34,065 bases of DNA from Acrocarpospora phusangensis (GTDB lineage: Bacteria; Actinomycetota; Actinomycetes; Streptosporangiales; Streptosporangiaceae): positions 1 through 34,065 of the forward strand of contig NZ_BOOA01000086.1 in NCBI RefSeq assembly GCF_016862995.1. Reading direction: 5' to 3'. Both the position numbers and the translations under genes were made by a program. The stretch's first letter is position 1. Each line of letters opens with the position of its first letter. Below are positions 9,853 to 29,701 of this stretch, piece after piece. The notes under the pieces were generated by a model, which saw nothing but the letters and a program-made list of their open reading frames with translations, did not search any database and was not told where the DNA came from.

Positions 9853-9856
9853 CAGG

Positions 9857-9886
9857 TTGACGGGTTTGTCCGTTCAGGGATACGTT
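9857..9886 (+). promoter_or_regulatory. Promoter driving the first cobalamin riboswitch
   Basis: TTGACG (9857-9862) is followed after 16 nt by GATACG (9879-9884), or after 18 nt by TACGTT (9881-9886). Either predicts a start near 9891-9893, just before the riboswitch P1 stem. It lies immediately after dop, so the cobalamin operon need not depend on dop transcription. Confidence 0.55.
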
Positions 9887-9890
9887 CCCG

Positions 9891-9990
9891 GTGAATTGTG
9901 GCGGCGTGAGGGAAATCCGGTGTAAATCCGGTGCGGTCGCGCCACTGTAACCCTCCCGATGAGGGGAGCCAGGTCACCACCCGCCACAGA
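9891..9990 (+). ncRNA. Cobalamin riboswitch upstream of cbtB
   Basis: The conserved cobalamin core is visible: GGGAAATCCGGTG with TAAATCCGGTGCGGTC, the B12 box GCCACTGTAA at 9941-9950, and AGCCAGGTCACC. A perfect 7-bp P1 helix closes it (GTGGCGG 9898-9904 with CCGCCAC 9981-9987), giving a compact aptamer of about 90 nt. The region after P1 (to 10030) holds the cbtB ribosome site GGAGGAGGA at 10015-10023, so translational control by masking that site is the likely mechanism. Family and strand are firm; the outer limits are approximate. Confidence 0.92.
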
Positions 9991-10030
9991 CCGACGACAG
10001 GGACGCGTAATCCCGGAGGAGGACCGTGGC

Positions 10031-10225
10031 GTGAGCCAGCTCTCAGCCCCCCACGTCCAGCCCATTCCCCTTCGCAGCCTCGCCTGGTGGGCGCTCGCCG
10101 TGCCCGCCCTCCTGCTGCTGGCCTACCTGGTCACCTTCGACCAGGGAGCCATCTCGCAGGCCGGCGACTACCTGCACGAACTCATGCACGATGGGCGTCA
10201 CCTGCTCGGCGTCCCCTGCCACTGA
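10031..10225 (+). CDS. cbtB: CbtB cobalt transporter subunit
   Basis: A 64-aa protein with one transmembrane helix (WWALAVPALLLLAYLVTF) and a C-terminal histidine-rich metal motif HELMHDGRHLLGVPCH, the hallmark of CbtB. It works with CbtA as a cobalt uptake component usually found under B12 riboswitch control. GTG 10031 is selected by GGAGGAGGA 7-15 nt upstream; an in-frame GTG further upstream would place coding sequence inside the aptamer. The stop overlaps the cbtA start (TGATG). Confidence 0.93.
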   Translation: MSQLSAPHVQPIPLRSLAWWALAVPALLLLAYLVTFDQGAISQAGDYLHELMHDGRHLLGVPCH

Positions 10226-10941
10226 TGATCCGCTCACTCTTCGTCCGGGGCCTGCTCGCCGGAATCATCGCAGGACTGGCGGCGGGCGCGTTCGCGTTCT
10301 TCGCGGGCGAGCCGCACATCGACGCGGCCATCGCCCTCGAAGAGGCCGCCGCCGGGCACACGCACGCGGAGGCTCCCCTGGTCAGCAGGTCCGGCCAGGT
10401 GGGCGGCCTGTTCCTCGCCACCGCCCTGTACGGCATGGCCGTCGGCGGCCTCTTCGGCCTGGCGTTCGCGCTGGTCCGGGGGCGCGTCGGCCCCCGCTCG
10501 GGGAGCGCGCTGGCGGTCGGCCTGGCGGCGGCCGGGTTCGTCGCCGTCGTCCTGGTGCCGTTCGTGAAATATCCGGCCAACCCGCCCGCGGTGGGGGATC
10601 CGGAGACGATCGGCTCGCGCACCTCGCTCTACCTGGTCGCGGTCGCGATCGGGCTGCTGGCGGCGGCCGCGGCCGCGGTCGCGCACCGGATCTTCGAGGT
10701 CAACGGGGAGCCCGTGCGCTGGCTGGCGACCGGGCTGGGGTTCCTGCTCCCGGTCGCGGCGGCGTGGATCTTCCTGCCGGCCGTGTCGGAGGTTCCCGAG
10801 GGCTTCCCCGCCGATCTGCTGTGGGACTTCCGGGTCTCCTCGCTGGGGACCCAGGTCGTGCTGTGGGGCGTGCTGGGGGTGTCGTACGCGTACCTCTTGT
10901 ACCGGAGTGAGCGGGTGGCCGGCGTGGCCGTACCGGCCTGA
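10225..10941 (+). CDS. cbtA: CbtA cobalt transporter
   Basis: A 238-aa integral membrane protein with about six hydrophobic segments, the first directly at the N-terminus (FVRGLLAGIIAGLAAGAFAF). It has the CbtA features GEP.....AIALEE with a His-containing stretch GHTHAE after helix 1, and PFVKYPANPPAVGDPETI between helices. It is predicted to import cobalt for corrin synthesis together with CbtB. The ATG shares one base with the cbtB stop, indicating translational coupling, and the phosphatase-like gene follows after one base. Confidence 0.93.
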   Translation: MIRSLFVRGLLAGIIAGLAAGAFAFFAGEPHIDAAIALEEAAAGHTHAEAPLVSRSGQVGGLFLATALYGMAVGGLFGLAFALVRGRVGPRSGSALAVGLAAAGFVAVVLVPFVKYPANPPAVGDPETIGSRTSLYLVAVAIGLLAAAAAAVAHRIFEVNGEPVRWLATGLGFLLPVAAAWIFLPAVSEVPEGFPADLLWDFRVSSLGTQVVLWGVLGVSYAYLLYRSERVAGVAVPA

Positions 10942-10942
10942 G

Positions 10943-11545
10943 GTGGCCTCTCGGGTGACCTTGGTCGCGCATGGGAGGACGGCGGCCATGCGGGCCGCCG
11001 CCTTCCCCTCGCCCGGTGATCTCCTGGAGCCCTTGCCGGATTCTCCCGGTTTGGCCGGTGCCGAAGGCCGGTGCGGGCCGGAGGAGCGGTGCCTGGGGAC
11101 GGCGCGGTGGCTGGGGTTGGCGGCGGTCGCCGATCCCGGGCTGCGGGACTGCGATCACGGGCGCTGGCGCGGGTTGTCGCTGGCCGAGGTGGCGGCGGCG
11201 GAGCCCGAGGGCGTGCGGGCCTGGCTGGCGGATCCCGGGGCCGCGCCGCACGGCGGGGAGTCGGTGGCCGGGCTGATCGGCCGGATGGGGGAGTGGCTCG
11301 GCGCGCTCCCGTCCGGGCGGGTGGTGGCGGTCACGCATCCCGCGGTCGTCCGGGCCGCGCTGGTGGCGGCGCTGGAGCTGCCGGCGGAGGCGTACCGGCG
11401 GGTGGATGTGCCGCCGCTGGGGCGAGTGGAATTGACCGGATTCGGGGACCGCTGGAACCTTCGTTTACCGCGATGGGAACCGCCGAGGGATGCTTCCCGG
11501 CGGTCCCGGGAGATATCCCCGGACTTTCTTGAAGGGTCTCCTTGA
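10943..11545 (+). CDS. Histidine-phosphatase-like protein in the cobalamin operon
   Basis: A 200-aa protein of the phosphoglycerate-mutase/histidine phosphatase superfamily. Recognisable parts are LVAHGRT near the N-terminus with the phospho-accepting His, DCDHGRWRGLSLAEV, HGGESVAGLIGRM, and the second active-site His in AVTHPAVVRAAL. The usual RHG triad reads AHG, so the first phosphate-binding Arg is missing. In a cobalamin operon the natural guess is alpha-ribazole phosphatase (CobC-type) or a degenerate relative, but the lost Arg argues for caution. GTG 10943 follows the cbtA stop by one base; GTG 10955 is an alternative. Confidence 0.78.
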   Translation: MASRVTLVAHGRTAAMRAAAFPSPGDLLEPLPDSPGLAGAEGRCGPEERCLGTARWLGLAAVADPGLRDCDHGRWRGLSLAEVAAAEPEGVRAWLADPGAAPHGGESVAGLIGRMGEWLGALPSGRVVAVTHPAVVRAALVAALELPAEAYRRVDVPPLGRVELTGFGDRWNLRLPRWEPPRDASRRSREISPDFLEGSP

Positions 11546-11604
11546 GTGAGTGCTGACGTGCGGATTCCGGATCTCCGGGCCTTTGAGGAAAGTTGGTATT
11601 TCGC

Positions 11605-13695
11605 GTGACTTATCCCTTCAGCGCCGTCGTCGGGCTGGCGGATCTGAAACTCGCGCTCGTGCTCAACGCGGTCTCGCCGCGGGTGGGCGGGGTGCTGGTC
11701 CGCGGGGAGAAGGGCACGGCCAAGTCGACCATCGTGCGGGCGCTGGCCGCGCTGCTGCCCCCGGTCGCGGTGGCCGACGGCTGCCGCTTCTCCTGTGACC
11801 CGGCGGCCCCCGACCCCCTCTGCCCCGACGCGCCGCATTCGGGTGACGGCTCGGTACGCGCCGCGCGGCTGGTCGAACTGCCGGTGGGCGCGTCCGAGGA
11901 CCGGCTGGCCGGGTCGCTCGATCTTGAGCGGGCGCTGACCGAAGGCGTGAAGGCGTTCGAGCCGGGCCTGCTGGCGGCGGCGCACCGGGGCATCCTGTAC
12001 GTGGACGAGGTGAACCTGCTCCACGACCACCTGGTCGACCTGCTGCTGGACGCCGCCGCGCTCGGGACGTGCTACGTCGAGCGGGAAGGGGTGTCGGTGC
12101 GGCATTCCGCCAGGTTCCTGCTCTCGGGGACGATGAATCCCGAGGAGGGGGAGCTGCGGCCGCAGCTGCTCGACCGGTTCGGGCTCACCGTGGAGGCGCG
12201 GGCGTCGCGGGATCCGGCGGAACGGGCGGAGGTCATCCGGCGGCGGCTCGCGTACGAGCTCGATCCGGAGGGGTTCGCGGGGCGCTGGGCGGCGGAGGAG
12301 GCGGAGCTGGCGCGGCGGATCGCGGAGGCCCGCGCGCTGCTGCCCGGGGTGGTGCTGCCGGACGCGGCGTTGAAGCAGATCGCGACGGTCTGCGCCGGGT
12401 TCGAGGTGGACGGCATGCGGGCGGACATCGTCACCGCGCACGCGGCCATGGCGCACGCGGCGTGGGAGGGGCGTGCGCGGGTGGGGTCGGCGGACGTGCG
12501 GGCGGCGGCGCGGCTGGCGCTGCCGCATCGGCGGCGGCGGGATCCCTTCGACGCGCCCGGCCTGGACGAAGCGCGGCTCGACGAACTGCTGAACGACTTC
12601 GACGACTACCCGGACGACGACCCCGATGGGCGCCCGGAAGACCCCGAGGCCGGAAATTTCGATACATCGGAGCCGAGTTCGGAACCGGAGTCGGGTGACG
12701 CGGAATCTGATGCGGAGTCCGGCTCTCCATCGGCGGATCCCCGCGATTCAGGCGATCTCCGCGATTCGGGAGACCTTCGTGATTCCCGTGATTCCCGTGG
12801 TTCCCGCGATCCGCGTGAGGCGGGTGTCGGCCAGGCAGGCGCTGCCCGGTCCCCGGACGCCTCGGGGTCGGATTCTCTGACCGTTGAAGATGCCTTCGCC
12901 CAGGCCGGTACGCCCTATCGGGCCCGCGTGTTCACCGTCCCCGGCGTCGGCACGGGCGTCCCCGGGCGACGCTCACGGGCACGAACCCCGGACGGGCGTA
13001 CGTCGGGATCGCGTCTGCCCGAAGGGCGGATCACGAGCGTGCACCTGACGGCCACGCTCCGGGCGGCGGCCCCCCACCAGCGCTCGCGCGGCGTGGCCGG
13101 ACCCGGCCTGCGGATCGTCAAATCCGACTTACGCGAGGCCGTACGCGAAGGCAGGGAGGGCAACCTCGTGCTGTTCGCCGTGGACGCCAGCGGGTCGATG
13201 GCGGCGCGCAAGCGCATGGGCGCGGTCAAGGCGGCCGTGCTGAGCCTGCTGCTCGACGCGTACCAGCGGCGGGACAAGGTCGGGCTGATCACCTTCCGGG
13301 GGGATACGGCCGAGTTGGTGCTGCCGCCGACCTCGTCGGTGGAGGCGGGGGCCGCGCGCATGCGCGAACTGCGCACGGGCGGTCGTACGCCGCTCGCGGC
13401 CGGTCTGCTCAAGGCCGCCGACGTGCTCCGGGTGGAGCACCTGCGCGACCCGGCCCGCCGTCCGCTGCTCGTCGTCGTCACCGACGGCCGCGCCACCTCA
13501 GGACCGGACCCCAGGCGCGCCGCCGGTCTGCTCACCCGGGTCAGCACCGTCGTCGTCGACTGCGAGTCCGGCCCCGTACGGCTCGGCCTGGCCGCCGAAC
13601 TGGCCGCCGGCATGGGCGCTTTGGCCGTCCGCTTGGACTCGCTCGCAGACGGAGCACTGGCCCAAGTGGTCCGGGCCACGAGGATGGTCGCGTGA
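11605..13695 (+). CDS. ChlI-ChlD fusion, ATPase/VWA subunit of the cobaltochelatase
   Basis: A 696-aa fusion of an AAA+ ChlI/BchI-like ATPase (about residues 1-325) and a VWA ChlD/BchD-like domain (about 510-696). The ATPase has Walker A GEKGTAKST and Walker B GILYVDEVNLL; the VWA has MIDAS DASGSM near 527-532. The acidic linker (about 330-490) is low complexity, with tandem R-D-S units. With CobN it should form the ATP-driven chelatase that inserts cobalt into hydrogenobyrinic acid a,c-diamide, replacing CobS/CobT, a known actinobacterial solution. GTG 11605 is preferred; TTG 11593 would directly abut the GAGGAAAG ribosome site. Confidence 0.9.
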   Translation: MTYPFSAVVGLADLKLALVLNAVSPRVGGVLVRGEKGTAKSTIVRALAALLPPVAVADGCRFSCDPAAPDPLCPDAPHSGDGSVRAARLVELPVGASEDRLAGSLDLERALTEGVKAFEPGLLAAAHRGILYVDEVNLLHDHLVDLLLDAAALGTCYVEREGVSVRHSARFLLSGTMNPEEGELRPQLLDRFGLTVEARASRDPAERAEVIRRRLAYELDPEGFAGRWAAEEAELARRIAEARALLPGVVLPDAALKQIATVCAGFEVDGMRADIVTAHAAMAHAAWEGRARVGSADVRAAARLALPHRRRRDPFDAPGLDEARLDELLNDFDDYPDDDPDGRPEDPEAGNFDTSEPSSEPESGDAESDAESGSPSADPRDSGDLRDSGDLRDSRDSRGSRDPREAGVGQAGAARSPDASGSDSLTVEDAFAQAGTPYRARVFTVPGVGTGVPGRRSRARTPDGRTSGSRLPEGRITSVHLTATLRAAAPHQRSRGVAGPGLRIVKSDLREAVREGREGNLVLFAVDASGSMAARKRMGAVKAAVLSLLLDAYQRRDKVGLITFRGDTAELVLPPTSSVEAGAARMRELRTGGRTPLAAGLLKAADVLRVEHLRDPARRPLLVVVTDGRATSGPDPRRAAGLLTRVSTVVVDCESGPVRLGLAAELAAGMGALAVRLDSLADGALAQVVRATRMVA
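12741..12816 (+). repeat. 9-nt tandem repeat tract in the ChlID linker
   Basis: About eight degenerate copies of a 9-nt unit (consensus CGYGATTCC, coding R-D-S) run in frame through the acidic linker between the AAA and VWA domains. Units differ at single bases, so the tract is not freshly amplified. Confidence 0.75.
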
Positions 13696-13713
13696 ATCGC
13701 CAGGAGGGGTCAG

Positions 13714-14310
13714 ATGCCGCAGGGCAAGCCTGAACACGTGCCGGAAGACGGCCTCACCACCCGGCAGCGCCGTAACCGGCCGCTCGTCATCGTGCACACC
13801 GGTCCCGGCAAGGGCAAGTCCACCGCCGCATTCGGGCTCGCCCTGCGCGCCTGGAACCAGGGCTGGCCGATCGGCGTGTTCCAGTTCGTGAAGTCCGCTA
13901 AATGGCGCATCGGCGAGGAGGCCGCCCTGCGCGCCCTCGGCGAGATCGGCCCGCCCGTCGTCTGGCACAAGATGGGCGAAGGCTGGTCCTGGATCAAGAA
14001 GGCGGGCACCGAGGAGGATCACGCCGCCGACGCCCGCGAAGGCTGGAACCAGATCAAACGCGACCTCGCCGCCGAGACCTACCGCCTGCTCGTCCTAGAC
14101 GAGTTCACCTACCCCATCAAATGGGGCTGGATCGACATCGACGACGTCACCACGACTTTGACGAGCCGCCCCGGCGCCCAGCACGTCGTCATCACCGGCC
14201 GCGACGCCCACCCCGACCTGCTCGCCCTGGCCGACCTGGTCACCGAGATGACCAAACTCAAACACCCGATGGACACCGGCCAGAAGGGCCAGAAGGGCAT
14301 CGAATGGTAG
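13714..14310 (+). CDS. cobO: Cob(I)yrinic acid a,c-diamide adenosyltransferase
   Basis: A 198-aa enzyme of the BtuR/CobA/CobO family that transfers the 5'-deoxyadenosyl group of ATP to Co(I) corrinoids. The P-loop HTGPGKGKST is at residues 28-37, with FQFVKSAKWRIGEE, VLDEFTYPIKWGW and the C-terminal MTKLKHPMDTGQKGQKGIEW typical of the family, and full length. AGGAGGGG lies 5-12 nt before the ATG. It follows the ChlID gene by 18 nt, matching the biochemical order cobalt insertion then adenosylation. Confidence 0.95.
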   Translation: MPQGKPEHVPEDGLTTRQRRNRPLVIVHTGPGKGKSTAAFGLALRAWNQGWPIGVFQFVKSAKWRIGEEAALRALGEIGPPVVWHKMGEGWSWIKKAGTEEDHAADAREGWNQIKRDLAAETYRLLVLDEFTYPIKWGWIDIDDVTTTLTSRPGAQHVVITGRDAHPDLLALADLVTEMTKLKHPMDTGQKGQKGIEW

Positions 14311-14357
14311 CCCTCTGCGATCTGCTGGCGGGGGCGCAGGGCCGGGAATTGTGACGG

Positions 14358-14532
14358 TCTGGGGCGGTCATGTGATGCCTGACATCGCGATGTGTGGCGG
14401 AAGGATGGCGGCGGGTTCTGTGACCGAGGTGGGGGGAGCGGCTGCCTTGTGCGGTGGCTTGGGGCGGTCGTGTGATGTTGTGGGTTTCGTGATGTGGGAG
14501 GGCGGCGGAACGTTGGGGTCGATAGGGTTGGA
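14358..14532 (+). repeat. Degenerate ~100-bp tandem duplication in the cobO-cobB gap
   Basis: The 222-nt gap before cobB holds two related blocks exactly 100 nt apart. TCTGGGGCGGTCATGTGATG at 14358-14377 recurs with three differences at 14458-14477, and a weaker GATGTG...GGCGGAA segment follows each. No hairpin terminator or convincing promoter was seen in the gap. Confidence 0.6.
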
Positions 14533-16119
14533 ATGGTGATGGTGCCTCGGCTGGTCGTCGCCGCTCCGGCTTCCGGGGCGGGGAAGACGACCATCGCCAC
14601 CGGGCTGATGGCGGCGCTGGTGCGGAGTGGACTGGATGTCTCTCCGCACAAGGTGGGGCCGGATTACATCGATCCCGGCTATCACGCTCTGGCCACCGGT
14701 CGTCCTGGCCGGAATCTGGATCCTTGGCTCACGTCGGAAGACTTGATCGTCCCGCTCTTCCTGCATGGTGCGGCCGATGCCGACATCGCGGTCATCGAGG
14801 GCGTGATGGGTCTTTATGACGGGATGCGCGGGGCTGGTGACTTCGCCTCGACCGCGCATGTCGCGCGGCTGCTCCAAGCGCCGGTCGTGCTGGTCGTGGA
14901 CGCCACCGGCCAAGGGCGTTCCGTGGCGGCTCTGGTGCACGGGTTCGCCTCGTACGACACCCGGGTGCGCCTGGCGGGAGTGATCCTCAACCGTGTCGGT
15001 TCGGCCCGGCACGAGGAGGTGTGCCGGGAGGCCCTCGAATCCACCGGCATCCCCGTCCTCGGCGCGATCCCCCGCACCGCCGACGCGGCCACCCCGTCTC
15101 GTCATCTCGGGCTCATCCCGGTCGCCGAACGCCGTACCGAGGCGGCGGAGGCCATCTCCGCCCTCGCCACTTTGATCGACTCAAGCTGTGATATATCCGG
15201 ACTTGTCGCCCAAGCACACACCGTCGGCCCGATAGCGGGGACGCCGTGGAACCCGGCCGACGCCCTCGCAGCCCTGGGCACCGGGGAATGGGACGCGAGA
15301 CCTTCGGGTGGCACCCCTCTCGGCGCCAGGCCCCTGAGCATCAGCCTTTCGAACGCCGGGACCTTGGGCGACGGGCATCTGAGCGTCGGCCTTTCGAACG
15401 CCGGGACCTTGGGCGACGGGCATCTGAGCGTCGGTCTTCCGAACGTCGGGACCTTGGGCGACGGGCCTTCGAGCATCGGCCTTCCGAACGTCCGGACCCT
15501 GGGCGACGGGCCTTCGAGCAGTGGCTCTGCGGGCGCGGGGCCTCGGGTCGCCGTGGCCGGGGGAGCGGCCTTCACCTTCGGTTACGCGGAGCAGGTGGAG
15601 TTGCTGGCCGCTGCGGGCGCTGAGGTCGTGACCTTTGATCCGGTACGGGATGAGGACCTGCCGGAGGGTACGCGAGGCGTGATCCTTCCTGGCGGATTTC
15701 CGGAGATGTATGCCGAGGAATTGTCCGCCAATGAGCGGCTTCGAGCGCGGATGACCGCGTTCGTGGCGAACGGGGGTGTGGTTGTGGCGGAATGCGCGGG
15801 ACTGCTCTATCTGAGCCAGGAGCTCGACGGCCACCCGATGTGCGGGATCGTCGACGCCAAAGCCGAAATGACCGGACGGCTGACTTTGGGGTATCGGGAC
15901 GCGGTAGCCGTACGGGAATCGGTGATGACGCGGGCGGGGGAGCGGTATCGGGGGCATGAGTTCCACCGGACGGTGTGCACCCCGCCGGGGAACCCGGTGT
16001 GGCGATGGGTTGACGGTGGCGACGGATACGCTTCCGGTCGGGTGCTGGCCTCCTACCTGCACCTGCACTGGGCGGGCAGTCCGGTGCTGGCCGCGCGATT
16101 CGTAGAGGAGTGCTCATGA
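14533..16119 (+). CDS. cobB: Cobyrinate / hydrogenobyrinate a,c-diamide synthase
   Basis: A 528-aa two-domain amidotransferase (CobB/CbiA family) that amidates the a and c carboxylates of the corrin ring using glutamine and ATP. The N-terminal dethiobiotin-synthetase-like domain has the P-loop AASGAGKTT-type motif (APASGAGKTT) and GVMGLYDG. The C-terminal class-I glutaminase domain has the nucleophile Cys in VVAECAGLLYL and GHEFHRT. Family members are about 450-470 aa; the excess is a linker of four 15-residue repeats at 268-327. ATG 14533 has AGGG a few bases upstream. The stop overlaps the PPOX gene start (ATGA). Confidence 0.95.
   Translation: MVMVPRLVVAAPASGAGKTTIATGLMAALVRSGLDVSPHKVGPDYIDPGYHALATGRPGRNLDPWLTSEDLIVPLFLHGAADADIAVIEGVMGLYDGMRGAGDFASTAHVARLLQAPVVLVVDATGQGRSVAALVHGFASYDTRVRLAGVILNRVGSARHEEVCREALESTGIPVLGAIPRTADAATPSRHLGLIPVAERRTEAAEAISALATLIDSSCDISGLVAQAHTVGPIAGTPWNPADALAALGTGEWDARPSGGTPLGARPLSISLSNAGTLGDGHLSVGLSNAGTLGDGHLSVGLPNVGTLGDGPSSIGLPNVRTLGDGPSSSGSAGAGPRVAVAGGAAFTFGYAEQVELLAAAGAEVVTFDPVRDEDLPEGTRGVILPGGFPEMYAEELSANERLRARMTAFVANGGVVVAECAGLLYLSQELDGHPMCGIVDAKAEMTGRLTLGYRDAVAVRESVMTRAGERYRGHEFHRTVCTPPGNPVWRWVDGGDGYASGRVLASYLHLHWAGSPVLAARFVEECS
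15334..15513 (+). repeat. Four 45-nt tandem repeats within cobB
   Basis: Four in-frame units (15334-15378, 15379-15423, 15424-15468, 15469-15513) each encode a 15-residue motif, consensus LSVGLSNAGTLGDGH. A partial fifth unit follows. Units 1-2 and units 3-4 form more similar pairs. The tract sits exactly between the ATPase and glutaminase domains of CobB. Confidence 0.95.
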
Positions 16120-16493
16120 GTTTCGAGACGTTCTGGAAGGAACGGCACCTCTGCACGCTCACCACGATCCGCCCGGACGGCACGCCCCACGTCGTGCCCG
16201 TCGGCGTGACCCTGGACGGCGACACGGCCCGAGTGATCACCAGCGGCCGGTCCCGCAAGGCCGAACACGTCCGTGCGGCCGGACCGGAAGGCGCGTTCGT
16301 CGCCGTCTGCCAGGTGGACGGCCGCCGCTGGTCCACCCTCGAAGGCCGCGCCGTCGTCCGCGACGATCCCGCCTCGATCGCCGACGCCGAGAACCGCTAC
16401 GCCGCCCGCTACCGCCAGCCTCGCCCCAACCCGGAACGCGTCGTCATCGAAATCAGAATCACCCGAATCCTAGGAAACGTCCCCCATGCCTGA
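16116..16493 (+). CDS. PPOX-class (probable F420-dependent) oxidoreductase
   Basis: A 125-aa split-barrel flavin/F420-binding protein of the pyridoxamine-5'-phosphate-oxidase-like superfamily. Visible are HLCTLTTIRPDGTPHVVPVGVTLDGDTARVITSGRSRKAEHVRA and the later VVIEIRITRILG strand, the pattern of small actinobacterial PPOX/F420 proteins. It could bind F420, FMN or heme; the sequence alone does not decide. ATG 16116 overlaps the cobB stop by 4 nt and has AGAGGAG upstream, so it is translated with cobB. A corrin-related redox role is suggested by context only. Confidence 0.82.
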   Translation: MSFETFWKERHLCTLTTIRPDGTPHVVPVGVTLDGDTARVITSGRSRKAEHVRAAGPEGAFVAVCQVDGRRWSTLEGRAVVRDDPASIADAENRYAARYRQPRPNPERVVIEIRITRILGNVPHA

Positions 16494-16649
16494 CCCGCGA
16501 CGGCACCCTGGCCGGGTCCGTCACCGGACGACATCCGCGATGACTTCCCCGGCCGGGTCCCGCGATCACCTGGATCGACCCAGGTCCCAGTGGCCCGGCC
16601 GAGCCAGGCGGCGAACTCACGCGGGCACCGCTCCCTGGGACTGTTGGTC

Positions 16650-17864
16650 ATGACGTACCCGGTGGTCGTCGTGGGGATCGGCGCCGACGGATGGGACGGG
16701 CTGTCGCCGGCCGCGCGGCGGGAGATCGAGAGCGCGGACGTGCTGATGGGCAGTGCCCGGCAGCTCGCCCTGGTCGCGACCTACGCCGAGCAGGTCACCT
16801 GGCCCTCGCCCCTGCTTCCGGCGCTGCCGGGCCTGCTCGCCGGGTACGGCGGGCGCCGGGTCTGCGTCCTGGCGAGCGGCGACCCCATGTTCCACGGCAT
16901 CGGCTCGACCCTGGTCCGCATCCTCGGCAGGGAGAACGTCAGGATCGTGCCCTCGCCGTCGTCGGTCTCGCTGGCGTGCGCGCGCATGGGCTGGCCGGTC
17001 GAGCGTACCCACGTGGTCAGCGCCGTCGGCCGCCCGCTCGCCGCGCTCAACGCGGCCCTGCGCCCCGGCGAACGCCTCCTGGTGCTCGGCGCCGACCCCG
17101 CCCGCGTGGCGGAACTCCTCATCAACGCCGGGTACGGCGAAAGCCCCTTCAGCGTCCTGGAGCTCCTGGGCGCGCCCGGCGAGCACGTCCGCCACACCAC
17201 CGCCGCGGGCTGGGCCATCTGGGGAGACGACCCGGACCCGCTCAACATCGTGGCCGTCGAATGCCTCGCCGCCCCCGGCACGCCGGTGCCCCCGCGCGTG
17301 CCCGGCCTCCCCGACGACAGCTTCGACCACGACGGCCAGCTCACCAAGCGCGAGGTCCGCGCGGTCACCCTCGGCCTGCTCGGCACCGACGGCATCCTCT
17401 GGGACATCGGCGCGGGCGCGGGCAGCATCGCCATCGAATGGCTCCGCGCCCACCCCACCGGCACCGCGATCGCCATCGAACGCGACCCGGCCCGCGCCAC
17501 CCGCATCGCCGATAACGCCGAATCCCTCGGCACCCCCGCGCTGCGCGTCCTCACCGGCTCCGCCCCCGACGCCCTCACCGCCCTCACCATCCCGCCCACC
17601 ACGATCTTCGTCGGCGGCGGCCTCACCACCCCCGGCCTCCTCGACCAGTGCTGGACCCGCCTGAGCCCGGGCGGCCGCCTGGTCGCCAACGCGGTCACCC
17701 TCGAATCCGAAGCCGTCCTCACCACCTGGTACGGCCGCCTCGGCGGCGACCTCCTCCGCCTCTCCGTCAGCAGAGCCGCCCCCATCGGCGCCTTCACCAC
17801 CTGGCGCCCCCACCTCCCGGTCACCATCTGGTCGGTGACCAAACCCTCCGAGGACCCTCGATGA
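16650..17864 (+). CDS. cobL: Precorrin-6Y C5,15-methyltransferase (decarboxylating)
   Basis: A 404-aa bifunctional enzyme that methylates C5 and C15 and decarboxylates the C12 acetate side chain. The N-terminal CbiE-type domain (about 1-200) starts VVVVGIGADGWDGL and has SGDPMFHGIGSTL. The C-terminal CbiT-type domain has the SAM motif WDIGAGAGSIAIEW at about 251-264, and FVGGGLTTPG. ATG 16650 starts the canonical domain; an upstream frame extension to 16590 adds an unrelated tail and is rejected. No obvious Shine-Dalgarno precedes it. The gap from the PPOX gene is 156 nt with nothing recognisable. Confidence 0.94.
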   Translation: MTYPVVVVGIGADGWDGLSPAARREIESADVLMGSARQLALVATYAEQVTWPSPLLPALPGLLAGYGGRRVCVLASGDPMFHGIGSTLVRILGRENVRIVPSPSSVSLACARMGWPVERTHVVSAVGRPLAALNAALRPGERLLVLGADPARVAELLINAGYGESPFSVLELLGAPGEHVRHTTAAGWAIWGDDPDPLNIVAVECLAAPGTPVPPRVPGLPDDSFDHDGQLTKREVRAVTLGLLGTDGILWDIGAGAGSIAIEWLRAHPTGTAIAIERDPARATRIADNAESLGTPALRVLTGSAPDALTALTIPPTTIFVGGGLTTPGLLDQCWTRLSPGGRLVANAVTLESEAVLTTWYGRLGGDLLRLSVSRAAPIGAFTTWRPHLPVTIWSVTKPSEDPR

Positions 17865-22349: not shown

Positions 22350-22966
22350 TCTTCTTCGCTCGCGATCGCGTTGATCGCCGCGGCCGTCATGGCGCTGCCG
22401 CCCCGGCGTCCCCGTACCACCAGGAACTCCAGGTCGTCGCGGGCGGCGAGCGCGTCCTTGGACTCCGCCGCGCCGATGAAGCCGACCGGAACCCCCAGCA
22501 CGGCGGCGGGCCGTCCCGCGCCTTCGTCGATCATCTCCAGCAGCCGGAAGAGCGCCGTCGGCGCGTTGCCGATGGCCACGACCGAGCCCTCCAGGCGGTC
22601 CCGCCACAGTTCCAGCGCCGCCGCGCTCCTGGTGGTGCCCAGCCGCCCGGCCAGGGCGGGTACGCGGGGGTCGCTCAGCGTGCAGACCACGTCGTTGCCG
22701 GCGGGCAGCCGTCTGCGGGTCACGCCGGAGGCCACCATCCAGGCGTCGCACAGCACCGGCGCGCCGCCCCGCAGGGCCGCCTCCGCCGCCGCGACCACGC
22801 CGGGCGACCAGGCCAGATCCCGGACGAGATCCACCATCCCGCAGGCGTGGATCATCCGGACGGCCACCCGCGCCACGTCCCGCGGGAGCCCGTCCAGCTC
22901 CGCCTCGGCGCGGATCGTGGCGAACGACCGCCGGTAGATCTCCGCCCCGTCCCGGACGTAAGTCAC
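22346..22966 (-). CDS. cobH: Precorrin-8X methylmutase
   Basis: A 206-aa isomerase that moves the C11 methyl to C12, giving hydrogenobyrinic acid. The catalytic His lies in RMIHACG (H40). [26 protein letters not shown] and [13 protein letters not shown] are family blocks, and the length is normal. GTG 22966 is preceded by AGGAGG; the frame is open further upstream only as a shadow of cobG. Overlaps of 4 nt with cobG (GTGA) and cobIJ (ATGA). Confidence 0.95.
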
Positions 22967-24225
22967 CCCATCCTCCTGACCCGCACGTCCTCGACCACGG
23001 CGTGCAACCCCCGATGCGTACGGCTCACGCCCCCGCGATCCACCCGATATCCCCCTTCGACCGCCACCACGTCCACGACCTCGCCCCGGGGCCGCCCGCA
23101 ACGCCGCTCGCACCCGGCCCAGTGCACGGCCACCCCGCCACCAATGACCGGCACCGACGACCGGGCGTCGCCCTGTACGTCGCTCAGCGACTTCGCGCAT
23201 CCCGGCCGGCCCGCGCACGCCGAGACGCCGATCCACGCCGACCGCGGATCGGTGACCAGCCCCGCCTCCACCAGCCGGGCCCCGGCCCACCCGATCCTGT
23301 CACCGGTGAGCCCCAGCACGACCACGCCCCGCCACGGCGTCAGCCGCACCTGCGCGCCCTCCTCGGCCAGTCGCGCCAGCACCTCCACCTGGGCGGCGGA
23401 CAGCCGCCCCAGCGGAACCGCCGCGCCGACCGCGGCGGTCCCGTCCCGCAGCGGGATCACTCCCACCAGTTCCTGCAGCGCCGGGCCGGCTCCCACGGGT
23501 TCGTCCCGTAACGTGCCGGATCGGGCGGCCTCAGGCAGCCGGGCCGCCGTCCTGGCGGGCCCGTCCGGAAGCTCGGACAGCCGCCACGCGTGGCTGCCGT
23601 CCTCGGCGCGCACGGCCAGGAAGCTCTCCGCCGCCGCCAGCATCAGCGGCACGGCCGACCCGGCGGAGCAGCGCAACCCCTGATCCGTGCCACCCAGCAG
23701 GACCGCGACGCCGCCCGCCAGGGGGACGGCCGTCACGTCCGCGTCCAGCGCGGCCACGTCCCCGGTCCCGTCGTCCAGGGCGAACAGGAAACGGCCGGGC
23801 AGGCCGGCCAGCGGCGTACACGAGATCAGCTCTCGGTCCAGGGCGGTGACCAGCGGGCGCACGCCGAGCACGCCGCGCGGGCCGAGCCCGGTCAGCGGAG
23901 ACGCGACGATGTTGCGGACCCGCTCATGGGTGGCCGACGGCAGCAGACCCGCCGCCGCGATGCGATCGGCGAAGGCGACCGGATCGCGCACCGCCCTGAC
24001 CTGCACGTTCGCGCGGGACGTCAGCTCGACGCAGCCGTCCCCGAGATCCGCTGCCAGGGCGCGGAGCCCGGCCGCGGAGATCTCCCCGCCGGGTACGCGC
24101 ACCCGCGCCAGCGGCCCGTCGGCGGCCTCGTGCAACTGCAGGGCTCCAGGGCAGGCATCAGATCCACGTCGGATGTGATCTAAGACGCTTCGCGTCGGAA
24201 TCCCTGATTGTCCGGCAATGGCCAC
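22963..24225 (-). CDS. cobG: Precorrin-3B synthase
   Basis: A 420-aa oxygen-dependent monooxygenase with a sulfite/nitrite-reductase-like fold. It hydroxylates precorrin-3A at C20 and forms the ring-D gamma-lactone. The N-terminal [23 protein letters not shown] is typical. The Fe-S/siroheme-type cysteines are in [15 protein letters not shown] and [12 protein letters not shown]. The only reasonable start is GTG 24225, which stands 7 nt after a TACGAT hexamer on the minus strand (24238-24233), so the operon may begin as a leaderless message with no room for a riboswitch. First gene of the cobG-cobH-cobIJ-cobK-cbiD operon. Confidence 0.93.
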
Positions 24226-24319: not shown

Positions 24320-24325
24320 TAGGCT
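24320..24325 (+). promoter_or_regulatory. -10 element of the cobN riboswitch transcript
   Basis: TAGGCT predicts a start near 24331-24333, which is where the riboswitch P1 helix begins. The -35 region (about 24296-24302) is weak. The agreement with P1 supports the call. Confidence 0.45.
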
Positions 24326-24330
24326 CCTCG

Positions 24331-24475
24331 TGGCGACGGCGTACGAGGAAGCCGGTGTGAATCCGGCGCGGTCCCGCCACTGTCACCGGGGAGCGAACCC
24401 CACCAGGGCCACTGTCACAGGGAAGGCCGGGGGGAGCGTCGAGCCGGGAGCCAGGACACTCGCGCCGCCGCGGCT
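24331..24475 (+). ncRNA. Cobalamin riboswitch upstream of cobN
   Basis: The core GAGGAAGCCGGTGTGAATCC is followed by GGCGCGGTCCC, the B12 box GCCACTGTC at 24376-24384, and GGGAGCCAGGACACT. A 9-position P1 with one mismatch closes the aptamer (GCGACGGCG 24333-24341 with CGCCGCCGC 24463-24471). It is about 50 nt longer than the cbtB riboswitch, mainly in the arm after the B12 box, which carries a second copy of GCCACTGTCAC at 24408-24418. The cobN ribosome site GAGGGAGGG follows at 24501-24509. Confidence 0.92.
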
Positions 24476-24516
24476 TCCGACGACCCGGGGCGCGGACCCC
24501 GAGGGAGGGCTTTCGC

Positions 24517-27500
24517 GTGATCCTGCTGCTGTCCACGTCCGACACCGACCTGCTGAGCGCCCGTGCCAGCGGCGCCGGCTACCGCCTCGCCAACCCGGCC
24601 AGGATCCGGCCGGACGACCTGCCCGCCCTGCTGGACGGCGCCGAACTCGTCGTCGTCCGGCTCCTCGGCGGCCGCCGGGCCTGGGAGGAGGGCCTGGACG
24701 CGCTGCTCGCCGGGCCGGTCCCGGTCGTCGTGCTCGGCGGCGAGCAGGCTCCGGACGCCGAGCTGATGGAGCTCGCCACGGTCCCCGGCGGCGTCTGCGC
24801 CGAGGCGCACGCCTACCTGGCCCACGGCGGCCCCGCCAACCTCGCGGAGCTGCACCGCTTCCTGTCCGACACCGTGCTGCTCACCGGCCACGGCTTCGAA
24901 CCGCCCGCCGCCCTCCCCACCTGGGGAGTCCTGCCCCGCGCGCAGGCCGGGGACGGCGGCCCGCTCGTCGGCGTGCTCTACTACCGGGCCCACCACGTGG
25001 CCGGCAACACCGCGTTCGTGGAGACGCTCTGCGACGCCGTCGAAGCCGCCGGCGGACGCGCGTTACCCGTCTACTGCGCGTCCCTGCGCACGGCCGAGCC
25101 CGGCCTGTTCGAGGCCCTGGGCACGGTGGACGCTCTCGTCGTCACCGTGCTGGCCGCCGGTGGCACCCGCCCGGCCACCGCCTCGGCCGGCGGCGACGAC
25201 GAAGCCTGGGACGTGGGCGCTCTGGCGGAGCTGGACATCCCGATCATCCAGGGGCTCTGCCTCACCGGCGACCGCGCCACCTGGGCGGCGGGCGACGACG
25301 GCCTCTCGCCGCTGGACGCCGCCACCCAGGTCGCCATCCCCGAGTTCGACGGCCGCATCATCACCGTCCCCTTCTCCTTCAAGGAGATCGACCCGGACGG
25401 CCTCACCGTGTACGTCGCCGACCCCGAGCGCGCCGCCCGGGTCGCCGGCATCGCCGTACGGCACGGGCGGCTGCGGCACGTGCCCGCCGCCGGACGCCGG
25501 ATCGCGATCATGCTGTCCGCGTACCCCACCAAACACTCCCGCATCGGCAACGCCGTCGGCCTGGACACCCCGGCGAGCGTCGTACGCCTCCTGGACGCCA
25601 TGGCCGCCCGCGGGTACACCCTCGGCGACGACCTGCCCCGGCACGACGGGGACGCGCTCATCCACGCCCTCATCGCGGCCGGCGGACAGGACCCCGACTG
25701 GCTGACCGAGGAGCAACTGGCCGGCAACCCCGTACGCATCCCCGCCGGCCGCTACACCGCCTGGTACCGAACCCTGCCCGAGGACCTGCGCGAGGCGATG
25801 GAACGGCACTGGGGGCCGCCGCCCGGCGAACTCTACGTCCAGGACGGCGACATCGTGCTGGCCGCCCTGCGGTCCGGCAACGTCGTCGTCATGGTGCAGC
25901 CGCCGCGCGGCTTCGGCGAGAACCCGATCGCCATCTACCACGACCCCGACCTGCCGCCCAGCCACCACTACCTCGCCGCCTACCGGTGGCTGTCGGACAC
26001 GTTCCAGGCGGACGCGGTCGTGCACGTCGGCAAGCACGGCAACCTCGAATGGCTCCCCGGCAAGTCCGCGGGGCTGTCCGCCTCCTGCGGCCCGGACGCC
26101 GCCCTCGGCGACCTGCCGCTGGTCTACCCGTTCCTGGTCAACGACCCGGGCGAGGGCACCCAGGCCAAACGCCGCGCCCACGCCACCCTGGTCGACCACC
26201 TCGTGCCGCCGATGGCCCGCGCCGACAGCTACGGCGACCTGGCCCGGCTGGAGCAGCTGCTGGACGAGCACGCCTCCATCGCCGCGATGGACCCCGCCAA
26301 GCTGCCCGCCGTACGCGCCCAGATCTGGACGCTCATCCAGGCCGCCCGCCTCGACCACGACCTGGGCCTGGAGGACCGCCCCCACGACGCCGAGTTCGAC
26401 GACTTCCTGCTGCACGTGGACGGCTGGCTGTGCGAGGTCAAGGACGTGCAGATCCGCGACGGCCTGCACGTGCTGGGCGTGGCCCCCGAGGGCGAGGCCA
26501 GGGTGGACCTGGTCCTGGCCATGCTCCGGGCCCGGCAGATGTGGGCGGGCTCGGAGGCGCTGCCCGGCCTGCGCGAGGCGCTCGGCCTGTCCGAGGCCGG
26601 TGGCGAGGCCCGCGCGGACGTGGACGGCGCGGAGACGGCCGCCCGCGCGCTCGTCTCGGCCATGGAGGCGCGCGGCTGGGACCCCGAGGCGGCGGAAGTC
26701 GTGGTCCGGGAGACGCCCCTCGGCGAGCACGCCGATCCCGGGCTGGCCGAGCGGGTCCTGCGGTTCGCCGCCACCGAGATGGTGCCCCGGCTGGCCCGTA
26801 CCACCGACGAGATCGGCAACGTGCTGCACGCGCTCGACGGCGGCTACGTCCCCGCCGGGCCCAGCGGATCGCCGCTGCGCGGCCTGGTCAACGTGCTGCC
26901 GACCGGGCGCAACTTCTACTCGGTGGACCCGAAGGCCGTGCCCAGCCGCCTGGCCTGGGAGACCGGCCAGGCCATGGCCGAGTCGCTGGTCGAACGCTAC
27001 CGCGCCGACACCGGCGACTGGCCCCGGTCGGTGGGCCTGTCCATCTGGGGGACCAGCGCGATGCGCACGGCCGGGGACGACATCGCCGAGGTGCTCGCCC
27101 TGCTCGGCGTGCGGCCGGTCTGGGACGACGCCTCCCGCCGCGTCACCGGCCTGGAGGCGATCCCCGCCGAGGAGCTGGGCCGGCCGCGGGTGGACGTCAC
27201 CGTCCGCGTCAGCGGCTTCTTCCGGGACGCGTTCCCGCACGTCGTGGCCATGCTGGACGACGCGGTCAAGCTCGTCGCCGGGCTGGACGAACCGGGCAAC
27301 TTCGTGCGGGAGCACGTACTCGCGGACGCGGCCAGGGGCGAGCGCGCCACCCTGCGGATCTTCGGTTCCGCCCCGGGCGCGTACGGCGCGGGCCTGCTCC
27401 CGCTCATCGACAGCCGCAACTGGCGCGACGACGCCGACCTGGCCGAGGTGTACGCGGTCTGGGGCGGTTACGCCTACGGCCGCGGCGTGGACGGCGTCCC

Positions 27501-28071
27501 CGCCCGGGAGGACATGGAGTCCGCGTACCGCCGGATCAACATCGCCGCCAAGAACGTCGACACCCGCGAGCACGACATCGCCGACTCCGACGACTACTTC
27601 CAGTACCACGGCGGCATGATCGCCACCGTGCGCGCCCTCACCGGCCGGGCTCCCGCCGCCTACATCGGCGACAGCACCCGGCCCGACGCCGTACGAACCC
27701 GCAGCCTGTCCGAGGAGACCAGCCGGATCTTCCGGGCCCGTGTCGTCAACCCCCGCTGGCTGGCCGCGATGCGCCGGCACGGCTACAAGGGCGCGTTCGA
27801 ACTGGCCGCCACCGTCGACTACCTGTTCGGCTACGACGCCACCACCGGCGTCGTGGCCGACTGGATGTACGACAAGCTCGCCGCCACGTACGTCCTGGAC
27901 GAGGAGAACCGGCGTTTCCTCAGCGAGTCCAACCCCTGGGCGCTGCACGGCATCGCCGAACGCCTCCTGGAGGCGGCCGGCCGCGGCATGTGGGAGCACC
28001 CGGACCCCGACATCCTCCAGCGACTCCAGGAGGCATTCCTCAAGGCGGAAGGAGACCTGGAGGACAGCTGA
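24517..28071 (+). CDS. cobN: Cobaltochelatase large subunit CobN
   Basis: A 1184-aa catalytic subunit that binds the corrin and inserts cobalt in an ATP-dependent reaction. It belongs to the CobN/BchH/ChlH magnesium-chelatase-H family. Family blocks include VVHVGKHGNLEWLPGKSAGLS, GNVLHALDGGYVPAGPSGSP with LVNVLPTGRNFYSVDPKAVPS, and SGFFRDAFPHVVAMLDDAV. GTG 24517 follows GAGGGAGGG by a normal distance. Partner ATPase functions should come from the ChlID fusion at 11.6-13.7 kb. It is divergent from the cobG operon and stops one base before the convergent kinase gene. Confidence 0.96.
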   Translation: MILLLSTSDTDLLSARASGAGYRLANPARIRPDDLPALLDGAELVVVRLLGGRRAWEEGLDALLAGPVPVVVLGGEQAPDAELMELATVPGGVCAEAHAYLAHGGPANLAELHRFLSDTVLLTGHGFEPPAALPTWGVLPRAQAGDGGPLVGVLYYRAHHVAGNTAFVETLCDAVEAAGGRALPVYCASLRTAEPGLFEALGTVDALVVTVLAAGGTRPATASAGGDDEAWDVGALAELDIPIIQGLCLTGDRATWAAGDDGLSPLDAATQVAIPEFDGRIITVPFSFKEIDPDGLTVYVADPERAARVAGIAVRHGRLRHVPAAGRRIAIMLSAYPTKHSRIGNAVGLDTPASVVRLLDAMAARGYTLGDDLPRHDGDALIHALIAAGGQDPDWLTEEQLAGNPVRIPAGRYTAWYRTLPEDLREAMERHWGPPPGELYVQDGDIVLAALRSGNVVVMVQPPRGFGENPIAIYHDPDLPPSHHYLAAYRWLSDTFQADAVVHVGKHGNLEWLPGKSAGLSASCGPDAALGDLPLVYPFLVNDPGEGTQAKRRAHATLVDHLVPPMARADSYGDLARLEQLLDEHASIAAMDPAKLPAVRAQIWTLIQAARLDHDLGLEDRPHDAEFDDFLLHVDGWLCEVKDVQIRDGLHVLGVAPEGEARVDLVLAMLRARQMWAGSEALPGLREALGLSEAGGEARADVDGAETAARALVSAMEARGWDPEAAEVVVRETPLGEHADPGLAERVLRFAATEMVPRLARTTDEIGNVLHALDGGYVPAGPSGSPLRGLVNVLPTGRNFYSVDPKAVPSRLAWETGQAMAESLVERYRADTGDWPRSVGLSIWGTSAMRTAGDDIAEVLALLGVRPVWDDASRRVTGLEAIPAEELGRPRVDVTVRVSGFFRDAFPHVVAMLDDAVKLVAGLDEPGNFVREHVLADAARGERATLRIFGSAPGAYGAGLLPLIDSRNWRDDADLAEVYAVWGGYAYGRGVDGVPAREDMESAYRRINIAAKNVDTREHDIADSDDYFQYHGGMIATVRALTGRAPAAYIGDSTRPDAVRTRSLSEETSRIFRARVVNPRWLAAMRRHGYKGAFELAATVDYLFGYDATTGVVADWMYDKLAATYVLDEENRRFLSESNPWALHGIAERLLEAAGRGMWEHPDPDILQRLQEAFLKAEGDLEDS

Positions 28072-28072
28072 G

Positions 28073-28990
28073 CTAGAGCATGAAGATGCCGCGGGGCAGG
28101 TTCTCGCTGGACGGGAGGGTCTGCGGGCGGCGGCCGGGAGTGGCGGTGGAGATGCCCTCCCGGCGCAGGATGTCGGCCAGCAGCAGGGCGACGGCCTCCC
28201 CGGTCAGGCGGCGGCGCGGCTCCCGCCGCAGCAGGCCCTCGATCACCGGCCAGAGGGACCCGGCGTTGTGCGGCGGGTCGGGCTCGTGGGTGAGCGCCAT
28301 GCCGAGCATCGCGCTCGGCCCGTCCCCCGGATAGGGCGGGCGCCCCTCCACCGCCATGTACATGGTCGCCCCCAGCGACCACAGGTCGGAGGCGTGCGTG
28401 GCGGGCTCGCCGCGCATGCGCTCGGGGGCCAGGTAGGCGGCGGAACGGGCGAGCGGGATGGTCTGGGAGGCGTTCGGGGAACCGGCGTCCTCCTCCAGCG
28501 CGGCGATGCCGAAGTCGGTGAGGACCACGCGGTCGCCGGTGAGCAGGATGTTCTCCGGCTGGATGTCGCCGTGCATGACCCCGCAGTGGTGGGCGTGCCG
28601 GATCCCGGCCAGCAGCTGGAAGCCCAGCCAGGCCGACCAGCGGATCGGGACGCGGCCGATGTGCTCCATCGTCTCCTTGAGGGTCAGGCCCTCCAGGAAC
28701 TCGGTCACGATCCAGAAACGCCCGTGCTCCTCGAACAGGTCGTGCACGGTGATGATCCCGGGGTGGCTCAGCCGGGCCGCGGACCGCGCCTCCTTGAGCG
28801 CGCGCCGCCGGGTGCCCTCCAGATCGGGCATGTCCAGGCGGTACGGCGGCTGCACCTCCTTGATCGCCACGTCCCGGGTCAGCCGCAGGTCATGGGCCTG
28901 CCACATGATGCCCGTGCCGTCACGACGAATCGGCGAGGCCAGCCGATAGCGCTCCAGGAGCAGTCGTGCGCGATCCGTTCCCATATCCAC
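28073..28990 (-). CDS. Soluble Ser/Thr protein kinase
   Basis: A 305-aa Hanks-type kinase domain with no transmembrane or extracellular part. Seen are VAIKEV with ATP-binding K44, the catalytic loop HGDIQPEN (H140-G141-D142), the Mg-binding DFG at 159-161, AYLAPERM, and DLWSLGATMYMAVEGRPPY. The HRD motif reads HGD, making it a non-RD kinase, and the glycine-rich loop (RRDGTGIMWQA) is degenerate. GTG 28990 with GGAG 7 nt upstream is preferred over ATG 28984. Substrates are unknown. Confidence 0.9.
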   Translation of the reverse strand: MDMGTDRARLLLERYRLASPIRRDGTGIMWQAHDLRLTRDVAIKEVQPPYRLDMPDLEGTRRRALKEARSAARLSHPGIITVHDLFEEHGRFWIVTEFLEGLTLKETMEHIGRVPIRWSAWLGFQLLAGIRHAHHCGVMHGDIQPENILLTGDRVVLTDFGIAALEEDAGSPNASQTIPLARSAAYLAPERMRGEPATHASDLWSLGATMYMAVEGRPPYPGDGPSAMLGMALTHEPDPPHNAGSLWPVIEGLLRREPRRRLTGEAVALLLADILRREGISTATPGRRPQTLPSSENLPRGIFML

Positions 28991-29087
28991 CTGTCTGCTC
29001 CGTGCCCGCCGTACCCGAGTCCATATTGTGCTCTGGCACGGTTCCGGCGGGCGGCGTCACTCCCTGGACGGGAGATAACGATCCGAT

Positions 29088-29492
29088 CTACACCAGGCCG
29101 ATCCCGAGGATCATCGTTCCGGCCCCCAGTCCGACTCCGCCGAGCACGGTAAGCCATATCAGCTTGTTCGGCTTGGTGTCTGACGGCCGTACGACCGACA
29201 GGAAGAAACCGAGCGGCATCAGGATGGGGGCGGCGACGATCAGCGCCCGGGCGAGAGAGCGCATCCCGTCCGAAAGATCCGCTTGATCTAGGTATAGCAG
29301 GGCGACCAGCGCGAAGAGTACTAAAACGCCCGCATGGGCGTGTCCGGCCCGCCAGAGGCCGCGCCTGACCGGGTTGTCGAGGTAGCCGGGAATGCGCCCG
29401 AGGATGTGGCCCAGCAGGGACAGGCCGCCGATGCCGACGGCGGAGACGGTGATGAGCAGCAATCCGGCCGTGCCGAGGGAAGAGGGGGACAT
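29088..29492 (-). CDS. Small four-helix membrane protein of unknown function
   Basis: A 134-aa hydrophobic protein with four predicted transmembrane helices: LLLITVSAVGIGGLSLLGHI, the segment after RAGHAHAGVLVLFAL, ALIVAAPILMPLGFFLSVV, and LIWLTVLGGVGLGAG. The conserved-looking block between helices 1 and 2 (GYLDNPVRRGLWRAGHAHAG) has three histidines in or near the membrane, which could bind metal or protons. I do not recognise an assigned function. Its promoter carries a striking operator array, so its expression is evidently controlled. Confidence 0.75.
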   Translation of the reverse strand: MSPSSLGTAGLLLITVSAVGIGGLSLLGHILGRIPGYLDNPVRRGLWRAGHAHAGVLVLFALVALLYLDQADLSDGMRSLARALIVAAPILMPLGFFLSVVRPSDTKPNKLIWLTVLGGVGLGAGTMILGIGLV

Positions 29493-29508
29493 GCGCGTAT
29501 CCGTTCAG

Positions 29509-29558
29509 ATTGGAGAGCGATGCTATCCAATTATTGGATAGTCTTGCTATCCAGTCAA
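29509..29558 (-). promoter_or_regulatory. Promoter with repeated CTATCC/GGATAG operator half-sites
   Basis: On the minus strand TTGACT (29558-29553) and AATAAT (29535-29530) are exactly 17 nt apart, a strong promoter for the small membrane protein. The spacer is itself GGATAG-N5-CTATCC. Overlapping the -10 is the perfect 19-bp palindrome CTATCCAATTATTGGATAG (29523-29541). A further partial half-site ATTGGA lies at 29509-29514. Three full half-sites therefore cover the polymerase-binding region, as expected for tight repression. The cognate regulator is not identifiable here. Confidence 0.8.
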
Positions 29559-29641
29559 GGGCACTTGCGTTTCCGCCGTTCAGGGGGTTGTCTGTCGGGA
29601 CCGCTTCGCCGAGCCAAAGATCACACGACGATTCAGGCGAG

Positions 29642-29669
29642 TTGTCGGCCGGTTCGGGGAAGATATGAA
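29642..29669 (+). promoter_or_regulatory. Candidate pup promoter
   Basis: TTGTCG (29642-29647) and TATGAA (29664-29669) are 16 nt apart and predict a leader of about 25 nt carrying the pup ribosome site GGAGG at 29689-29693. Each hexamer matches the consensus at 4 of 6 positions. Confidence 0.45.
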
Positions 29670-29701
29670 GCAGAGACGTCCCCCGAGCGGAGGTATCACC
29701 G

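Follow-up and report, generated by a model that had tools for sequence, protein, structure and literature searches.

The genes of the Pup-proteasome system (PPS) are encoded close together, according to PMC8223512, and CbtAB, which is predicted to transport cobalt, occurs mainly in Proteobacteria and Actinobacteria, according to PMC2667541. Both occur in a single stretch of DNA from Acrocarpospora phusangensis (NZ_BOOA01000086.1, 34,065 bp; hereafter, the window), which is the whole of contig C86 in a 9.11-Mb draft genome of 219 contigs. As in the PPS gene locus, the window has arc, dop, pup, prcB, prcA, and pafA in standard order and strand, but it differs from that locus in that dop and pup are split by 19.85 kb of cobalamin (B12) synthesis (cob), kinase, and membrane genes. 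The dop–pup junction is a variable, permissive slot in the GTDB family of the window, and the arrangement as a whole is probably best explained by entry of a Ser/Thr kinase (STK) gene and a small membrane protein (Mem) gene into this slot, then placement of a cob set behind dop, with no role in proteolysis. No description of cob genes in a dop–pup gap was found in the literature, with most subscription journals outside the search, and the words ‘cobalamin’ and ‘Streptosporang’ are absent from PMC8223512. The proteasome genes flank the inserted material on both sides:

5119–6891, + strand: arc, proteasome ATPase, left flank (TIGR03689, 848 bits; cut-off, 504.75)
7077–8243, + strand: acyltransferase-like gene between arc and dop (PF01757, 93.7 bits)
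8329–9852, + strand: dop, depupylase (TIGR03688, 784.5 bits; cut-off, 492.3)
29702–29911, + strand: pup (69 aa, C-terminal GGE, Pfam Pup match)
30908–31762, + strand: prcB (TIGR03690, 356.2 bits)
31779–32576, + strand: prcA (TIGR03691, 342.3 bits)
33434–34065, + strand: pafA, truncated by the contig end

Dop, Arc, PrcB, and PrcA all exceed curated cut-offs. Extra genes are a minus-strand open reading frame (ORF) between pup and prcB and another ORF between prcA and pafA. The dop-to-pup spacer measures 19,849 bp with both genes on the plus strand, and the adjacency of dop and pup typical of a PPS locus is lacking. Profile searches of the spacer thus agree with the initial annotation, which had put a B12 block and genes for a kinase and a membrane protein into a dop–pup interval of about 19.8 kb:

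9897–9988, + strand: adenosylcobalamin riboswitch, 44 bp past the dop stop (RF01482, 52.5 bits; gathering score, 50)
10031–10225, + strand: cbtB, cobalt transporter subunit, 64 aa (PF09489, 43.3 bits; cut-off, 27)
10225–10941, + strand: cbtA, cobalt transporter subunit, with an inferred start that overlaps the cbtB stop (PF09490, 233 bits)
10907–11545, + strand: histidine phosphatase, CobC-like, exact start uncertain (PF00300, 71.7 bits; TIGR03162, 53.6 bits, below the cut-off of 162.9)
11593–13695, + strand: CobD/I-type cobaltochelatase ATPase (TIGR02442, 778.5 bits, just below the cut-off of 779.45)
13714–14310, + strand: cobO, adenosyltransferase (NF004637, 263.3 bits; cut-off, 185)
14494–16119, + strand: cobB, cobyrinate a,c-diamide synthase (PF01656 and PF07685, above cut-off)
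16110–16493, + strand: PNPOx-like ORF between block 1 and block 2 (PF01243, 70.1 bits)
16590–17864, + strand: cobL, CbiE + CbiT (TIGR02467, 151 bits; TIGR02469, 98.9 bits; both above cut-off)
18113–18856, + strand: cobM (TIGR01465, 297.6 bits; cut-off, 259.65)
18959–20074, − strand: cbiD, start approximate (NF000849, 519.7 bits)
20065–20811, − strand: cobK, start approximate (NF005968, 324 bits)
20805–22313, − strand: cobIJ fusion, start approximate (NF004647, 329.2 bits; TIGR01466, 312.5 bits)
22963–24225, − strand: cobG-like precorrin-3B synthase (TIGR02435, 220.9 bits, below the cut-off of 234.8)
24345–24461, + strand: cobalamin riboswitch upstream of cobN (RF00174, 72.6 bits; gathering score, 31.5)
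24517–28071, + strand: cobN (PF02514, 1333.7 bits)
28073–28990, − strand: STK (PF00069, 117.9 bits)
29088–29492, − strand: Mem, without a Pfam match
29508–29556: tandem dyad, a candidate operator between the membrane gene and pup

For the comparisons below, block 1 denotes cbtB-cbtA-phosphatase-chelatase ATPase-cobO-cobB and block 2 denotes cobL to cobN with the second riboswitch. Judged by protein families and riboswitches, the two together are predicted to be an ordinary B12-repressed set for cobalt uptake and corrin synthesis. CobN, CobO, CobB, CobL, CobM, CbiD, CobK, and CobIJ exceed curated cut-offs, and both riboswitches reach the Rfam gathering score. The window shares these proteins, CbtA/CbtB, and the two B12 riboswitches with actinobacterial cob clusters, but differs from them in its position and in having block 1 ahead of block 2 in tandem. 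Relatives with a cob-free slot usually carry CobN and block 1 together elsewhere in the genome, with block 2 first and block 1 inverted behind CobN; the exceptions are G053 and G074, whose clusters, not at dop, run from block 1 into CobL and CobM like that of the window (CbtA-chelatase-CobO-CobB-CobL-CobM). The G+C content at third codon positions was 0.78–0.91 in block 1, 0.88–0.96 in block 2, and 0.96 in dop, figures that carry little weight, as the ORFs taken for CbtA and CobB extended too far at the 5′ end. Within block 2 (18959–24225), a CbiD-type C1-methyltransferase is combined with a CobG-like enzyme, and CbiD was undetected in the block of the sister genus, g29.

The adjacency of dop and pup is the ancestral state. 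Of 138 genomes sampled across the phylum, 60 carried dop above the cut-off with pup on the same contig, and the distance between them was within 500 bp in 57, 1.6 and 2.0 kb in two, and 19.9 kb in the window genome. Because the gap of the window is the largest among these 60 genomes, chance is not at issue. The dop-cob-pup order occurred in no genome sampled outside the GTDB family of the window and, as it is absent from the phylum sample, an ancestral dop-cob-pup order is rejected. The block was therefore inserted, given that adjacency is ancestral (57/60) and that the interrupted order is absent outside the family sample. The initial annotation had reasoned that the same order in distant actinobacterial orders would make the arrangement ancestral; no such case appeared in the phylum sample, which supports the insertion.

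The order is found well beyond a single assembly. As the window is one entire contig of a draft in 219 pieces, an assembly chimera might be suspected, but identical dop-cob-pup order was present within single contigs of two congeners (G024, G117) and three further relatives (G155, G100, G075), and a chimera is rejected as having practically no chance of being the source of the order. In the sister genus, g29, all seven sampled genomes have a dop–pup distance of 17.2–17.8 kb and CbtA directly behind dop. No integrase or transposase was present among the 38 window ORFs scanned against NCBIfam, no tRNA was found in the window, and no repeat pair joining both borders was found in the stretches searched (each border searched separately). 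Signs of an integrative mobile element are rejected on these grounds, and the earlier statement that no integrase, transposase, or flanking repeat is visible stands for the ORFs and stretches searched.

The family sample of 180 genomes (matches listed: 150 dop places, 150 pup places, and 91 CbtA-bearing genomes) revealed how variable the dop–pup junction is. At least 120 dop–pup pairs lie on one contig and, among the matches listed, 36 are <500 bp apart and 63 are <1.5 kb apart, with the largest gap (35.8 kb) in congener G117. In many genera the slot contains the kinase gene and/or the membrane gene but no cob genes, as dop-STK-pup, dop-Mem-pup, or dop-STK-Mem-pup. A single compound insertion that includes the kinase and membrane genes is rejected, since both occur without cob genes in relatives, and the earlier assignment of these two genes to the same insertion as the B12 genes does not hold. 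Unrelated cargo, of which 20 ORFs were scanned and 18 matched a Pfam family, includes a two-component system in Microbispora, MFS and amidohydrolase genes, PucR regulators, AMP-binding enzymes, alpha-lytic-type proteases, an enolase-family gene, and a GGDEF/EAL protein. A gap of this length is not in itself particular to the window within the family: G176 (genus g40) has a 19.4-kb dop–pup gap without these cob genes and with no match to window proteins inside. Like variable insertion slots between conserved core genes, the dop–pup slot has conserved flanks and changing cargo, and needs no mobile-element gene; it differs from them in splitting a functionally linked gene pair and in holding a cob set in seven genera. 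Across an entire actinobacterial family, then, the usually adjacent dop and pup can lie tens of kb from each other, so that a joint dop–pup transcript is not required there.

CbtA was found ≤20 kb from dop in at least 26 genomes among the 150 listed, belonging to seven genera: g1, the genus of the window (5/5), g29 (7/7), g38 (4/4), g52 (2/2), g5 (2/2), g16 (1/1), and g6 (5/9), where fractions refer to the matches listed. In 25 of the 26 listed genomes, CbtA starts 369–836 bp behind the dop match, the exception being G103 (6.9 kb). By layout, g6 corresponds to Streptosporangium and has seven genomes with the core (five listed, plus G131 and G092) and four without. The cob block is present in three sizes across genera. 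The full block occurs in the window genus (G024, G117) and in g29 (G155, G100, G075, all three with CbiD undetected), while in G072 and G097 two halves of the block lie on separate contigs. Congener G117 has ~12 kb extra between CobG and CobN, including ABC transporter, amidase, and FGGY kinase genes. A shorter core (CbtB, CbtA, phosphatase, chelatase ATPase, CobO, and CobB) occurs in g5, g6, g16, g38, and g52; in G004 the CbtA of this core is truncated and the phosphatase has no match. The smallest version, only phosphatase and CobB at dop, was found in g20, which by layout corresponds to Planotetraspora (loci L004, L104, and L238). Among 80 named Dop loci, nine have cob genes behind dop (L004, L010, L013, L018, L023, L024, L025, L027, and L028), all from Streptosporangium, Planobispora, Sinosporangium, or Planotetraspora, and none of the 80 has the full block. 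Seven dop-linked loci were tested for B12 riboswitches: in five, one lies between dop and cbtB/cbtA; in L104, one separates phosphatase from CobB; and L092 lacks any at gathering score.

These distributions are consistent with a stepwise history, in which the kinase and membrane genes would have entered the dop–pup junction and moved pup away from dop, after which a cob gene set, headed by its own B12 riboswitch, would have been placed directly behind dop. Block 1 is common to the seven genera, and block 2 would have joined it in the shared ancestor of the window genus and g29. The number of insertions was assessed with an rpoB-rpoC species tree (usable stretch in 31 of 46 chosen genomes) and with cob gene trees (FastTree and quick trees), in which genome tags mark genomes and not genes; CobO, CobD/I, and CobN of Planotetraspora lie outside the slot. 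Rows with under half of the columns were left out (under 45% in the parsimony analysis), which dropped G155 from the proteasome tree, as was one phosphatase row >300 aa (Planobispora rosea). The p-values of the approximately unbiased (AU) tests are optimistic, as the groups were chosen after the trees had been seen. Several of the 46 genomes searched have two rpoB genes, one of them not adjoining rpoC.

Genera g1 and g29 are sisters in both the DNA and protein rpoB-rpoC trees (bootstrap, 100), with g45, which has a cob-free slot, next (100), while the Streptosporangium-type genomes G015, G038, G052, and G086 are separate, and g20 lies near Microtetraspora with weak support. The dop-linked block 1 gene trees conflict with this species tree. 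Holding g1 and g29 with g45 was rejected (p-AU = 4e-43 for CobO + CobD/I; 6e-6 for CobB + phosphatase), and all dop-linked rows as one clade were not rejected (p-AU = 0.35 for CobO + CobD/I; 0.20 for CobB + phosphatase). The dop-linked CbtA form one clade (support, 92), and CobN and CobIJ of g1/g29 group near dop-linked genera. A single insertion in the ancestor, with five or more later losses or replacements, is slightly favoured over repeated transfer, at about even odds of being the correct history, on account of the highly constant left border, the agreement of dop with the species pattern, and the losses observed inside g6. Several results weigh against it: free trees leave the dop-linked rows split, with non-dop copies of G053, G074, G030, and G159 interspersed; CobG of g29 groups with g45/g59; Fitch parsimony on the 31-tip rpoB-rpoC tree requires three changes, compared to five losses for a single gain; and no B12 riboswitch relic occurs in eight slots without cob genes, so that block relics in these cob-free slots are rejected. 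Horizontal transfer of cob genes into this slot on several occasions, via recombination in the conserved flanks (dop on the left; kinase, membrane gene, and pup on the right), would account for the three changes and for empty slots without relics, and cob genes do move between genera, g45 and g59 pairing in all eight cob trees having both without being sisters in the species tree. This alternative is a realistic, though less probable, one, given that Dop follows the species pattern (window Dop is 95–96% identical to that of cob-free relatives vs. ~92% to that of Streptosporangium) and that the CobB + phosphatase tree joins Planotetraspora to g1/g29 as under vertical descent, with a support of only 83. 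Of the initial proposal of one insertion into an ancestral locus, the insertion therefore stands, while ‘one’ is in doubt, with three block sizes and trees that fit one or several events; likewise, the judgement that the insertion looks old is upheld for the window genus and g29, sisters sharing the block.

The genomes of Planotetraspora type are a mosaic of two cob gene lineages. Their CobB and phosphatase lie at dop and belong to the dop-linked lineage, while CobO and CobD/I lie beside CobN and belong to the other. Joining the non-dop CobO + CobD/I of g20 to the dop-linked rows was rejected (p = 6e-5), as was moving its dop-linked CobB + phosphatase to Microtetraspora (p = 2e-4). In Planotetraspora, a single pathway is thus cleanly divided between two loci that differ in gene lineage, which makes this genus useful for the study of gene-by-gene cluster replacement.

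A further alternative is that block 2 originally lay downstream of the proteasome genes at a distance of some tens of kb, such that the window would reflect a local rearrangement and not an insertion from afar. In four genomes of family f4, which we take from the layout to be Mycobacteriaceae (G213, G244, G304, and G223), cobN lies 31–47 kb downstream of dop on the same strand (4/4 with both on one contig), and the f4 order CobL+ CobM+ CobK+ CobIJ− CobG− CobN+, whole in one genome and partial in three, resembles block 2 of the Streptosporangiaceae. Three shorter-core genomes (G015, G038, and G086) likewise have cobN 93–117 kb downstream on the same strand (3/3 on one contig), with cobN on another contig in the shorter-core genomes G004, G064, G052, and G079. 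In the other phylum genomes that have both on one contig, the distance between cobN and dop is 100 kb upstream (G250), 234 kb (G296), 288 kb (G288), 750 kb (G234), 2.4 Mb (G272), and 6.0 Mb (G201), and in the in-family outgroups G034 and G051 it is 0.8 and 2.5 Mb, which makes an old shared neighbourhood unlikely.

A cobN transcript would not reach pup in the sense direction, because the reverse-strand kinase and membrane genes lie between them. The gene layout suggests that the block has no role in proteolysis and is not coupled to it. The initial annotation had speculated on a regulatory link between B12 status and protein turnover, for which no support was found. Tuning of the PPS by B12 status through linkage would draw on the riboswitch being 44 bp past the dop stop, so that dop read-through into the leader is conceivable, and on the linkage being kept in seven genera, but two reverse-strand genes lie between the cob genes and pup, relatives retain proteasome genes without cob genes in the slot, and unrelated cargo occupies the same slot elsewhere, leaving such coupling highly improbable. 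The arrangement is unusual but, in a gap that also collects unrelated genes, probably serves no special function.

The tandem dyad upstream of pup (TGGATAG-N5-CTATCCA, two copies 24 bp apart) was found nowhere else in the 9.1-Mb genome, allowing up to one mismatch, and overlaps a promoter-like site for the membrane gene (TTGACT-17-AATAAT). When up to two mismatches are tolerated, 38 of the 39 loci that have the membrane gene carry the dyad ≤700 bp upstream of pup, as do 10 of the 104 that lack this gene, counts that are not independent, as some loci share a genome; eight of the ten dyad-bearing loci without the membrane gene are from Actinomadura. The dyad makes a regulator of pup or of the neighbouring gene testable. 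A more extended proposal, and a doubtful one, is that the whole family uses the dop–pup junction as an integration slot, that a dedicated regulatory dyad marks this slot, that two cob lineages were exchanged through it (with the Planotetraspora mosaic as the outcome), and that uncoupling of pup from dop was possible because pup and the membrane gene were already under their own dyad-binding regulator.

Several minor features concern the proteasome genes themselves. Some Pup proteins have a C-terminal glutamine and require deamidation (PMC8223512); the Pup of the window ends in GGE (29903–29911), and therefore, under the mechanism given there, its conjugation should need no prior deamidation by Dop. 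A second pafA start, also truncated by a contig end, lies in G000 on contig C136 (14179–14808; L244), with a protein ~95% identical to that of the window pafA and neighbours encoding an RHS-repeat protein, a phosphoesterase, an MFS protein, and a LysR regulator. PafA rows of 470–471 aa were judged to be matches to Dop and were left out. The pup–prcB gap is likewise variable in the family (L134, 3409–13722, and other loci) and in Microtetraspora holds an operon of GH38, oxidoreductase, and ABC sugar transporter genes.

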